From NCBI GenBank assembly GCA_017453305.1, contig JAFTKJ010000045.1:1-38274 (forward strand): a DNA stretch of 38,274 bases. Reading direction: 5' to 3'. Below are positions 36,820 through 38,274 of the stretch, piece by piece. The stretch is from Clostridia bacterium (lineage in GTDB: Bacteria; Bacillota; Clostridia; Oscillospirales; CAG-272). Under the pieces are notes generated by a model, which did no database searches, was not told the DNA's origin, and worked only from the letters and a program-made list of their open reading frames with translations. Both the position numbers and the translations under genes were made by a program. Positions within the stretch are counted from its first letter, which is position 1. Every line of letters starts with the position of its first letter.

Positions 36820-36855
36820 ATTTGCGTTTGCAACGCAGACGGCAATTGCATATAC

Positions 36856-36925
36856 GGAGAAGTACTCAAGTGGTCGAAGAGGCGTGACTCGAAAGCGGCT
36901 CGATTTCATCACTAAGTGCTCTTCC
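36856..36925 (+). pseudogene. Degenerate tRNA-Ser copy
   Basis: The 5' half reads like tRNA-Ser: GGAGAAG acceptor, CTCAAGTGGTCGAAGAGG D-arm and an anticodon loop CTCGAAA (anticodon CGA). The 3' side of the anticodon stem does not pair, there is no long variable arm, and no TTCGAAT T-loop or CCA. A short CTCTTCC could pair poorly with the acceptor. It shares the preceding TACGGAGA context with the intact tRNA 170 bases downstream. Best read as a truncated or recombined copy. Confidence 0.7.
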
Positions 36926-37024
36926 AAACTCCTTGTAAATCCTCACCTTTTCGGAATTTGAGGTGTAGATTTTCGGGACTACGGTCTACAGTATTCTATC
37001 AAAATTCCAAACAAAATTTAATAC

Positions 37025-37113
37025 GGAGAGATATCGAAGTGGTCATAACGGGGCTGACTCGAAATCAGTTTGTGCGCAAGCACACGAGGGTTCGAATCCC
37101 TCTCTCTCCGCCA
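37025..37113 (+). tRNA. tRNA-Ser (anticodon CGA)
   Basis: A full cloverleaf of 89 bases including an encoded CCA. The acceptor is GGAGAGA (37025-37031) with TCTCTCC (37103-37109). The anticodon stem GCTGA/TCAGT has loop CTCGAAA, so the anticodon is CGA (codon UCG). The long variable arm TGTGC-GCAA-GCACA is typical of serine tRNAs. The T-arm is GAGGG-TTCGAAT-CCCTC. A 15-bp hairpin follows immediately. It lies at the junction between core genome and an AT-rich accessory-looking stretch. Confidence 0.97.
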
Positions 37114-37186: not shown

Positions 37187-37742
37187 ATGTTTATAACACA
37201 AATTATAGGCTTTGTTGTTTTTATTATATCTTTATGTTTGGCAATACTTGCTATTATGAGTTGTCTCTTCAAAAATATAGGGGCAACACATTTTGGAATT
37301 TCAACATTGTTTTTTTTATTCAATACTTCCACTTTTTCCATTTTCCTTGGAACAATTTGTTTTCCACTTTTCACCAGATGTTTGGGGAATGGCATACATT
37401 TTCATTGCAATGAATGCCTTTTTCGCAATCATTCCTTATTATTTTTTGATAGGTACACTTTTTTTTGGAAAAAAGTACATTTACAGATTGAATAAATTTC
37501 TCATACCGAAAAGATATTCTTACAAAAATGTAATTCGTTATCGGATGAATTACAGTAGTGGAATAATACATACTCGATATGTTGGTCCCAAAAAAGTAAT
37601 TACATATGACTTCGAAATATACTTTAACGATAAAATGTATAGTGAATTTAGTGTAAATAAGCATAATAACAAAAAAATCACTTATATCAAAAAACTTCTT
37701 GAAGAAAACCATTGCAAGAAAAACGAAAAAATTAAAACATAA
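37187..37742 (+). pseudogene. Small membrane protein gene interrupted by a frameshift
   Basis: Two overlapping reading frames appear to form one gene. The first starts at ATG 37187 with AAAGGTAG upstream and gives a helix (MFITQIIGFVVFIISLCLAI) then more hydrophobic sequence. The second frame, open from about 37293 to 37742, has a hydrophobic helix (AYIFIAMNAFFAIIPYYFLI) then a soluble part of about 90 residues starting GKKYIYRLNKFLIPKRYSY. It has no good start of its own. A run of eight T at 37310-37317 lies in the overlap and could be the slip site. Whether this is a real mutation, an assembly error or programmed slippage is not decided. AT-rich; family not recognised. Confidence 0.6.
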
Positions 37743-37805
37743 GTTAAAAGGACACCTTTTCACTGTTCTTACCTACATTTACACACCTTTTTACTGCTCT
37801 TTCGC

Positions 37806-37851
37806 AACAAAAACAGAACATTTGTCTACCGACAAATGTTCTGTTTTTGTT
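37806..37851. terminator. 21-bp perfect hairpin before the hairpin array
   Basis: Left arm 37806-37826 and right arm 37831-37851 pair perfectly around TACC. The outer ends are A-rich on the left and T-rich on the right, so it can terminate transcription in both directions. It marks the left boundary of the array. Confidence 0.85.
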
Positions 37852-37854
37852 TAT

Positions 37855-38063
37855 CCAAGCCGCAGGCTTGGTATATCATTGACGCACGAAGTGCGGCGTA
37901 TATCATCAAGGGCGGCTCACCGCCCTTGTATCTCATCAGCCCCTTTGGGGCTGGATCTCCCTGCGGCTTGATGAGATACTCGCCCGAAAGCGAGATATAC
38001 TCGTTTTCGGACGGATGATATGCAATTCCTTGCGGAATTGATGATATACAAGGCTATGCCTTG
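37855..38063. repeat. Array of short hairpins with inverted AT-rich linkers
   Basis: At least eight small stems in 209 bases. CCAAGCC-GCA-GGCTTGG (37855-37871); CGCAC-GAA-GTGCG (37883-37895); CAAGGGCGG with CCGCCCTTG (37907-37928); CAGCCCC-TTT-GGGGCTG (37937-37953). Then CTCGC with GCGAG (37979-37994); CGTT-TTCG-GACG (38002-38013); CAATTCC with GGAATTG (38023-38040); CAAGGC-TAT-GCCTTG (38049-38063). Arms differ between stems, yet all pair. Linkers in the left half read TATATCAT or TATCTCAT; most in the right half read ATGAGATA, ATGATATG or ATGATATA, their complements. GTATCTCATCA (37928-37938) pairs with 37969-37979. The whole may fold into one branched structure. No protein-coding frame explains it. 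Confidence 0.85.
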
Positions 38064-38089
38064 ATTTATTTACAAAATTATGGTATAAT
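38061..38089 (+). promoter_or_regulatory. Promoter at the right end of the hairpin array
   Basis: TTGATT (38061-38066), a 17-base spacer and TATAAT (38084-38089) with TGG before the -10. The first three bases of the -35 are the last bases of the final hairpin, so folding of the array as DNA would affect this promoter. Confidence 0.75.
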
Positions 38090-38129
38090 AATTTCAACAA
38101 CATTAAATTTGACAAAGGGGTGCAATTGT

Positions 38130-38274
38130 ATGAAATACATTTCTGTTAATAAACTCTCTGATTTCGAATTTCATGATGCAGAATTTGCACTTGAGATCTT
38201 TGACAACAAATGCTTAAGAGTTAAGGCAATTTACTTAAATATTCATAAAGACGCAGAGCAAAACCAACATGTAA
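38130..38274 (+). CDS. Hypothetical protein, N-terminal 48 residues (runs off the window)
   Basis: An open frame from ATG 38130 to the window edge without a stop, with AAAGGGGTG about 8 bases upstream and a clear promoter at 38061-38089. The visible part starts MKYISVNKLSDFEFHDAEFA and ends near LNIHKDAEQNQHV. The FHDAEF and LNIHKDAEQN segments look like conserved cores of a small uncharacterised family of Bacillota, but I cannot name it. No signal peptide or membrane segment is visible in this part. It lies in the AT-rich accessory region, just after the hairpin array. Confidence 0.7.
   Translation, partial: MKYISVNKLSDFEFHDAEFALEIFDNKCLRVKAIYLNIHKDAEQNQHV

Follow-up and report, generated by a model that had tools for sequence, protein, structure and literature searches.

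Inverted hairpin arrays behind tRNA genes of gut Clostridia look like the front end of a small mobile gene cassette

Anatomy and fold of the array

The DNA analysed here (the window) is contig C12, 38,274 bp, of a Clostridia bacterium assembly of 119 contigs that is 80% complete. Near its right end stands a row of short hairpins with dissimilar arms, joined by a near-constant linker, and the locus raises the question of what an array that keeps its pairing while its sequence varies might be. The first-pass annotation placed it at 37855-38063, counted at least eight hairpins and offered four readings: a structured RNA, a fold-back single-strand DNA substrate, a mobile-element end or a recombination site. 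We found that positions 37806-38066 are one copy of a stereotyped module (Table 1), in which H0 is followed by H1 to H4 with TATATCAT-type linkers, the half-hairpin MID, and H5 to H7 with ATGATATA-type linkers. H0, just outside the interval first drawn, belongs to the module. The hairpins and their pairing arms are real; they number seven, with one half-hairpin and H0, the earlier eight having come about because the halves of H5 can also fold alone. The linkers do invert at the middle, from TATATCAT, TATATCAT and TATCTCAT on the left to ATGAGATA, ATGATATG and ATGATATA on the right, and the order of three left linkers, MID and three right linkers is fixed, not that of an open-ended array. As had been seen, CCTGCGGCTTG at 37960-37970 matches the complement of 37856-37866 letter for letter, and other copies preserve the pairing.

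Two familiar categories were rejected, as they had been at first pass. The array is not coding: only the end of one frame (37699-37971, 90 aa) overlaps the hairpin stretch, and the arms vary freely among copies. Nor is it a CRISPR: its internal direct repeats are linker matches of 9-12 nt and the intervals are palindromes.

Some 690 nt separate the window copy from tRNA-Ser(CGA) on its left, and this interval may hold an older cargo gene. Stretches like the right-end-like repeat before H0 also precede some other H0 hairpins (L152, L193, L194, L196 and L198; by eye), and in other copies H0 comes directly after the CCA end of a tRNA. Upstream of the intact tRNA-Ser(CGA), at 36855-36945, is a decayed tRNA-Ser-like sequence (GGAGAAGTACTCAAGTGGTCGAAGAGG...) that by eye is like the intact tRNA-Ser of L232. 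The window's own downstream gene, which is cut, begins differently from the PF05635 genes described below.

Table 1. Features of the window around the hairpin module
Feature	Position	Strand	Basis
tRNA-Ser(CGA)	37025..37113	+	Rfam tRNA 54.3 bits; ARAGORN (L001 726-814)
Possible first cargo gene, two overlapping frames (37187-37495, 37293-37742), perhaps decayed	37187..37742	+	ORF list; reading inferred
Right-end-like repeat: direct repeats ACACCTTTT..CTGTTCTT, 31 nt apart	37752..37801	+	repeat search
H0, perfect 21-bp hairpin with A-run/T-run, terminator-like	37806..37851	+	inverted-repeat search
H1 hairpin CAAGCC-GCA-GGCTTG	37856..37870	+	hairpin check and other copies
Left linker 1, GTATATCATT	37871..37880	+	sequence
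H2 hairpin	37883..37895	+	hairpin check
Left linker 2, GTATATCATC	37898..37907	+	sequence
H3 hairpin AAGGGCGG-CTCA-CCGCCCTT	37908..37927	+	sequence and hairpin check
Left linker 3, GTATCTCATC; exact complement of right linker 5	37928..37937	+	inverted-repeat search
H4 hairpin AGCCCC-TTT-GGGGCT	37938..37952	+	hairpin check
MID half-hairpin CCTGCGGCTTG, complementary to H1 5' arm and loop	37960..37970	+	inverted-repeat search
Right linker 5, GATGAGATAC	37970..37979	+	sequence
H5 long hairpin, 14-nt arms, 86% complementary, two mismatches, 5-nt loop	37981..38013	+	inverted-repeat search
Right linker 6, GATGATATGC	38014..38023	+	sequence
H6 hairpin CAATTCC-TTGC-GGAATTG	38023..38040	+	hairpin check
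Right linker 7, GATGATATAC	38040..38049	+	sequence
H7 hairpin CAAGGC-TAT-GCCTTG	38049..38063	+	hairpin check
Promoter-like: -35 TTGATT overlapping H7 end, 17-nt spacer, -10 TATAAT (38084-38089)	38061..38089	+	
Downstream gene start, cut by contig end	38130..38274	+	sequence

Folded as RNA, positions 37800-38070 have a computed energy of -133.9 kcal/mol, whereas 200 dinucleotide shuffles average -71.7 (sd 4.4), which gives a z of -14.1; as DNA the z was -15.6, with H0 lying in the folded stretch and contributing to these values; as RNA or as DNA, 0 of 200 shuffles was as stable. In the computed fold the left linkers pair in a nested fashion with the right linkers and the hairpins stand opposed, which yields a ladder of four-way junctions. 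The stem formed by linkers 3 and 5 extends into MID and displaces H4, so that H4 and MID compete, and H1 and the H1/MID pairing are likewise alternatives.

Copies in other genomes and the Gut-1 RNA

The first-pass annotation had suggested looking for the linker with other palindromes across genomes, the contrary outcome being that no other genome carried it. The linker-hairpin-linker pattern, with different palindromes, was present in 27 of 98 genomes (the window's own included) and in 11 of 58 genera, and the reversed pattern in 0 of 98. At least 118 stretches of a named genome collection contain it, 117 of them titled as Clostridia-type MAGs and one as Cloacimonetes. This last match (L085, in MAG UBA6097) is a candidate for either a true array or a mis-binned contig. 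Sixteen viral contigs with the pattern served only as sequences in element scans. A phage or plasmid home was rejected for the window array: neither the 50,697 phage records nor the 72,556 plasmid records searched contained a match to it.

A search of the collected loci gave 105 distinct copies besides that of the window. The count requires an intact H1 and first linker; the window copy falls outside it because its first linker ends in ATT, and copies with an interrupted H1, such as L096 and L196, are outside as well. In these two, which come from different genomes (L196 lies on C71 of the window's own), the H1 loop is broken by the same insert of about 44 nt (TAGGGGTTCCCCGAAGCGAGC...), a hairpin inserted within a hairpin. 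Three left and three right linkers are the commonest layout, found in 51 of the 94 copies with enough linkers on both sides (11 of 105 dropped). A different arrangement was seen at L045 (G044:C34 48,700-49,100), where ATGATATAC linkers and hairpins form an array in direct orientation throughout, without the inverted half; it is partly duplicated and lies immediately upstream of a kinase-like gene.

That the arms vary while their pairing is kept was borne out in the 63 copies that have exactly three linkers on the left and three or more on the right (42 of 105 dropped). Each hairpin slot has 7 to 24 distinct 5' arms, and stems of at least 5 bp form, from H1 to H7, in 57, 48, 41, 56, 60, 57 and 57 of the 63, compared with 0.5-6% for shuffled letters. 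Covariation, proposed at the outset as a check, appeared in one pairing and not in another. MID complements the 5' arm and loop of its own H1 over a mean of 9.99 nt (97 copies; the other 8 of 105 have no right linker in reach and hence no MID), as against 6.00 nt when MIDs were exchanged among copies (500 shuffles, sd 0.31, maximum 7.03, relatedness uncorrected). Within the CAAGCC class (56 copies) the run was still 10.02 against 8.63 (0 of 500 shuffles), which shows covariation of the loop as well. The 32 copies of the CATTGC class differ little from their shuffles, 10.72 against 10.33 (2 of 500). Left linker 3 and right linker 5, on the other hand, showed no covariation within the family (Fisher p = 1; 94 copies), and this pair was discarded. 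On the tRNA-sense strand, left arms have 26 G.T and 4 A.C mismatches and right arms 4 and 7, a mixed result in which the right-arm numbers are small and a few frequent hairpins dominate; the opposite leanings suggest that each half of the array may be read on its own strand.

Gut-1 (RF01706) is a published noncoding RNA candidate (Weinberg et al. 2010, PMC2864571), tabulated as RNA, not cis-regulatory, and 'Human gut only'; the Gut-1 passages of that paper mention neither tRNA ends nor the protein discussed below. At gathering, the only Rfam match in the window was its tRNA, the array lying below the Gut-1 value (50 bits), and at E up to 1 positions 37700-38130 gave six matches, none of them Gut-1; no Rfam family was assigned to the window array. 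Arrays with GTGAAAT and GTGATATT linkers do match Gut-1 above cut-off, including the own-genome sister arrays L195 and L196, the latter on both arms (+ 22-96, - 116-206). Although the window linkers TATATCAT/ATGATATA are unlike the GUGAAAU of Gut-1, both kinds of array join short variable hairpins by a near-constant linker, and Gut-1-type arrays also stand at tRNA 3' ends, an observation made here that lies outside the Rfam definition. From 30 best-hit loci and 20 chosen stretches came 37 such arrays that have a T-run side and 80 nt or more of upstream sequence; 19 of them adjoin a tRNA, of 11 kinds in all, where the base rate is 2.2%. The 77-nt Gut-1 model comprises three hairpins, one arm, whereas the full module is inverted and has H0 and a promoter. 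Gut-1 was matched in 49 of 291 genomes of the class, 33 above cut-off; in 14 control genomes, E. coli gave a match below cut-off. The ATGATATA module is of the same architectural class as Gut-1, though not Gut-1 by score.

These matches of sister arrays to a published RNA candidate (PMC2864571) lend some support to a reading in which the array is transcribed, as a Gut-1-like noncoding RNA or as a leader or insulator between tRNA and cargo, and acts as RNA, its link to tRNA genes being a consequence of location. The acceptance of G.T over A.C by left arms and the switch-like H1/MID pairing would suit such an RNA, whereas right arms have no such wobble bias.

tRNA ends, promoters and cargo genes

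In 57 of the 105 copies ARAGORN placed the end of a tRNA or tmRNA gene 29-42 nt upstream of H1 on the same strand, with only H0 between, and 15 tRNA/tmRNA kinds were involved; by comparison, 0.7% of the strand positions in these loci fall within the 80 nt behind a tRNA. H0 resembles a terminator of tRNA transcription, which speaks against transcription of the array as a structured RNA. Among the 96 copies whose upstream sequence extends for 150 nt or more, 40 do not adjoin a tRNA. Eight of these 40 (L012, L026, L033, L066, L074, L126, L147 and L175) follow a copy of the tail of an upstream tRNA that matches at 17/24 nt or better, a threshold reached for 14 of 121 tRNAs and for 2 of 605 control tails.

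For 14 of 137 tRNAs the 3 kb downstream contain an exact copy of 12 nt or more from the 3' end of that tRNA; among controls, the tails of other tRNA kinds tested at the same places, the number was 0 of 1370. The copies are 12-21 nt long, and ten of the 14 begin 142-172 nt away and bracket small array-free inserts. Most lead straight into a terminator-like hairpin, often the H0 of the next array (by eye). The copy at L168 (12 nt, 705 nt away) brackets an entire array cassette and is the sole such case among the 14; other cassettes terminate in differing sequences (by eye), and for the window copy no duplicated tRNA 3' end was shown at the far end of the insert. The copying of tails fits a putative target-site duplication or site-specific crossover in the tRNA end. 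At L007 (C80 of the window's own genome) there are three tandem copies of the tRNA-Lys 3' end, GACTCTCCGATGGGTCACCA, and a different terminator hairpin comes after each; beyond the third lie an array with ATGGAATC-type linkers and a four-helix-bundle gene that is broken.

Of the 35 genomes of the genus, 33 contain a match, in some cases not an orthologue, to the protein whose gene lies on the left side of the window's tRNA-Ser(CGA). At L232 a complete array, a promoter, a four-helix-bundle gene and a second gene come after this gene and a tRNA-Ser(CGA); at L230 the orthologous gene and tRNA-Ser(CGA) are followed by another hairpin and a short array-free insert. Taken together, the tRNA-tail copies and this presence and absence at one locus suggest insertion, a further point against location alone as the link between a structured RNA and tRNA genes. 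An empty site with both flanks was recovered neither at the own tRNA-Arg locus, where 17 of 35 genomes match, mostly weakly, and offer no good orthologue beyond one partial, nor at tRNA-Trp in the genus of G044, where one contig stops at the tRNA and another carries a different insert. Contigs L231, L235 and L286 stop just behind such a tRNA; stops close to arrays, or only a few nt from the 3' end of a tRNA, are compatible with assembly breaks caused by repeats. Stacked arrays were present in L198, L196 and L052. In the L047 region, upstream of the tRNA-Trp of G044, a separate short repeat occupies 670-738 of the query stretch and has many copies in G044 in both orientations.

On the other side of the array, 73 copies could be tested for a TATAAT-like hexamer (5/6) behind TTGATT/GTGATT. 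In 30 of them the spacing is exactly 17 nt, the next-best spacing accounts for 8, and shuffles gave 114 of 1460 for spacings of 15-19 nt pooled; 42 of the 73 have no -10 at 15-19 nt. The other 32 of the 105 copies were dropped (9 without right linkers, 22 without a TGATT end and 1 too short). Over the window region as a whole, promoter-like sites were not enriched over shuffles (5 found, 5.5 expected). The promoter-like sequence is directed away from the array, which also argues against its being a transcribed structured RNA, a reading that we regard as unlikely, though more probable than the other alternatives below.

The gene behind the array varies. A PF05635-like four-helix-bundle protein (23S-rRNA-IVP/Avd-like) is encoded by 13 of 55 readable first genes, so that the shared flanking protein sought by the first-pass annotation exists for these; nine of the other 42 were scanned and encode UDG, GNAT (two), HAD, RtcB, ADP-ribosylglycohydrolase, TfoX_N, ASCH and polysaccharide deacetylase. 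The L194 protein matched PF05635 with 98.5 bits, and its closest solved chain was 2rld. A second, variable gene often overlaps or abuts the stop of the four-helix-bundle gene (by eye).

Starting from the protein led back to arrays. The window's own genome has six PF05635 matches, five above cut-off. The five genes with an assembled upstream side (C38, C36, C71, C19 and the partial C41) all follow inverted hairpin arrays (by eye), the linkers being, in that order, AATGATG, GTGAAAT, GTGAAAT, a ATGATATA/GTGAAAT hybrid and CGATAT; the sixth, on C8, runs off its contig with its upstream side unassembled. At least four perfect hairpins within at most 450 nt upstream were found for 15 of 26 PF05635 genes and for 34 of 400 random windows from other loci. 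The 26 genes came from the family search with at least 200 nt upstream each, four of them from the own genome, and are what was left of 35 loci after 8 unrecognised by the script and one without upstream sequence. By eye, a tRNA or tRNA tail, H0 and an array precede the four-helix-bundle gene in L207, L211, L212, L214-L217, L220, L223 and L224; L226 has a tRNA and a repeat-rich variant before its PF05635 gene, and L210, L213 and L218 have arrays with no adjacent tRNA. In L201, L202, L204-L206, L208, L219 and L227 the PF05635 genes have short simple repeats, not arrays (by eye), and a substantial minority of PF05635 genes is thus without an array. The simple repeats at those eight loci lie near the start codon and are of GCAGAAT, GCAAATT and AATTAGC types.

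Inverted copies bear on a further explanation, replication slippage, in which template switching at stalled forks would copy hairpins and tRNA tails, the arrays being by-products that need no mobility system of their own. Some small inserts carry the tRNA T-arm in inverted form right behind H0, as in L033, L192, L105 and L147 (4 of 99 at 17/23 or better, against 1 of 990, a weak control because T-arms resemble one another). At L285 (G099:C107), read by eye, tRNA-Trp is followed by a terminator hairpin, a 19-nt inverted copy of the tail, a hairpin-rich body of about 200 nt and a 15-nt direct tail copy, and the inverted copy there could have arisen by slippage too. The common three-plus-three order, the fixed -35 spacing, the H1/MID covariation and the association with one protein family argue instead for a selected module, and we judge slippage as the sole origin improbable.

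A candidate cassette system and the search for its mover

The recurring order is tRNA 3' end, H0, inverted hairpin array, -35 box, -10 box and variable gene or genes. We consider that the array probably serves as left end and promoter module to a small mobile gene cassette, one that is anchored at tRNA 3' ends. Among the four readings offered at first pass, the mobile-element end is the best, and the array may act as RNA or as folded DNA. That annotation contained neither the anchoring at tRNA 3' ends, the terminator-like H0, the -35 box in the last hairpin and the tRNA-tail copies, nor the four-helix-bundle gene, the variable cargo and the sister linker families including Rfam Gut-1.

From this anatomy, a cassette would insert at the junction between the CCA end of a tRNA and its terminator, and its own H0 would replace that terminator; insertion would be harmless because H0 would terminate the tRNA. 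When single-stranded, the array would fold through pairing of left with right linkers into the computed ladder of four-way junctions with opposed hairpins, in which MID could swap onto H1, with which it co-varies. Mobility machinery, the four-helix-bundle protein or both may recognise this fold and not a fixed sequence. To judge from promoter spacing, the -35 box of the last hairpin would drive the cargo, and repeated insertion would stack new cassettes between the tRNA and older ones.

No enzyme that could be the mover was found in the own genome (80% complete) among the families profiled, RVT_1 and Y1_Tnp, and neither a reverse transcriptase nor a Y1 transposase was retained as the driver, though some carriers have them. 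The resemblance of PF05635 to Avd, the accessory protein of diversity-generating retroelements (PMC10053308), would allow a retro-element in which the Avd-like four-helix-bundle protein recruits a reverse transcriptase to the array RNA, which is then copied into tRNA ends. RVT_1 was matched in 28 of 98 genomes, including the carriers G015, G001 and G004, but neither in the own genome nor in the array-rich G044, G030, G082, G008, G079 and G020, assemblies 71-95% complete in which a gene may be missed; we think a retro-element very improbable.

Short hairpins in inverted pairs are the shape of BIMEs, and REP/BIME-like hairpins could be moved on single-stranded DNA by a Y1 (RAYT/IS200-type) transposase. 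Y1_Tnp occurs in 18 of 60 genomes searched (G044 lies outside the 60), among them the carriers G079, G015, G069 and G036; against this, it had no match in the own genome or in the carriers G030, G020, G082, G008, G001, G003 and G004, and movement of this kind seems to us just as doubtful as the retro-element.

The cassette reading can be compared with several known systems. The IVP gene of 23S rRNA intervening sequences and Avd of diversity-generating retroelements belong to the same protein family, PF05635. Unlike the former, the gene here stands behind hairpin arrays, often at tRNA ends, and not inside 23S rRNA (rRNA had no match in the window or in 16 related loci); unlike the latter, it comes without a reverse transcriptase match anywhere in the own genome (80% complete). 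Integron gene cassettes with attC share with the arrays a variable small cargo, tandem stacking and a site in which pairing is kept with free sequence, but attC has one hairpin where the present site has seven, and here the cassettes are anchored at many tRNA ends and carry promoter sequences. Integrative elements in tRNA genes, such as tyrosine-integrase islands, are bracketed by tRNA 3'-end copies of about 20 nt, as are some inserts here, mostly small and array-free; the differences are that one array family uses 15 tRNA/tmRNA kinds and that the inserts are short, with 142-705 nt to the tail copy.

A wider proposal, which we offer tentatively as possible, is that of a previously unrecognised mobile cassette system with many families of small gene cassettes, each having a linker-defined hairpin ladder recognised by shape. 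They would insert at nearly any tRNA or tmRNA 3' end, supplying a promoter as well as a terminator in place of the old one, and would duplicate some 20 nt of the tail and form tandem stacks. An Avd/IVP-like four-helix-bundle protein would handle them. Gut-1 would then correspond to an arm in just one of the families, and many of the orphan PF05635 genes would encode the protein component of the system. Among the papers listed by a limited open-access literature search, none described hairpin-array cassettes at tRNA ends, and as far as that search shows the cassette reading of the whole class would be new.

The module is widespread in gut Clostridia, often right behind tRNA genes, and resembles the front part of a mobile gene cassette about which little is known. 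If this is true, two orphans gain a genomic home, the Gut-1 RNA known from metagenomes and the scattered PF05635 genes, whose role outside 23S rRNA and diversity-generating retroelements has been obscure hitherto and which the cassette reading would place. Cassettes may also explain a practical problem, that of contigs stopping near arrays or tRNA 3' ends, and if the fold is what is recognised, they would be a natural case of selection on shape with the sequence left free. The tRNA 3' ends of uncultured gut Clostridia would, if the reading holds, be docking sites for gene cassettes.
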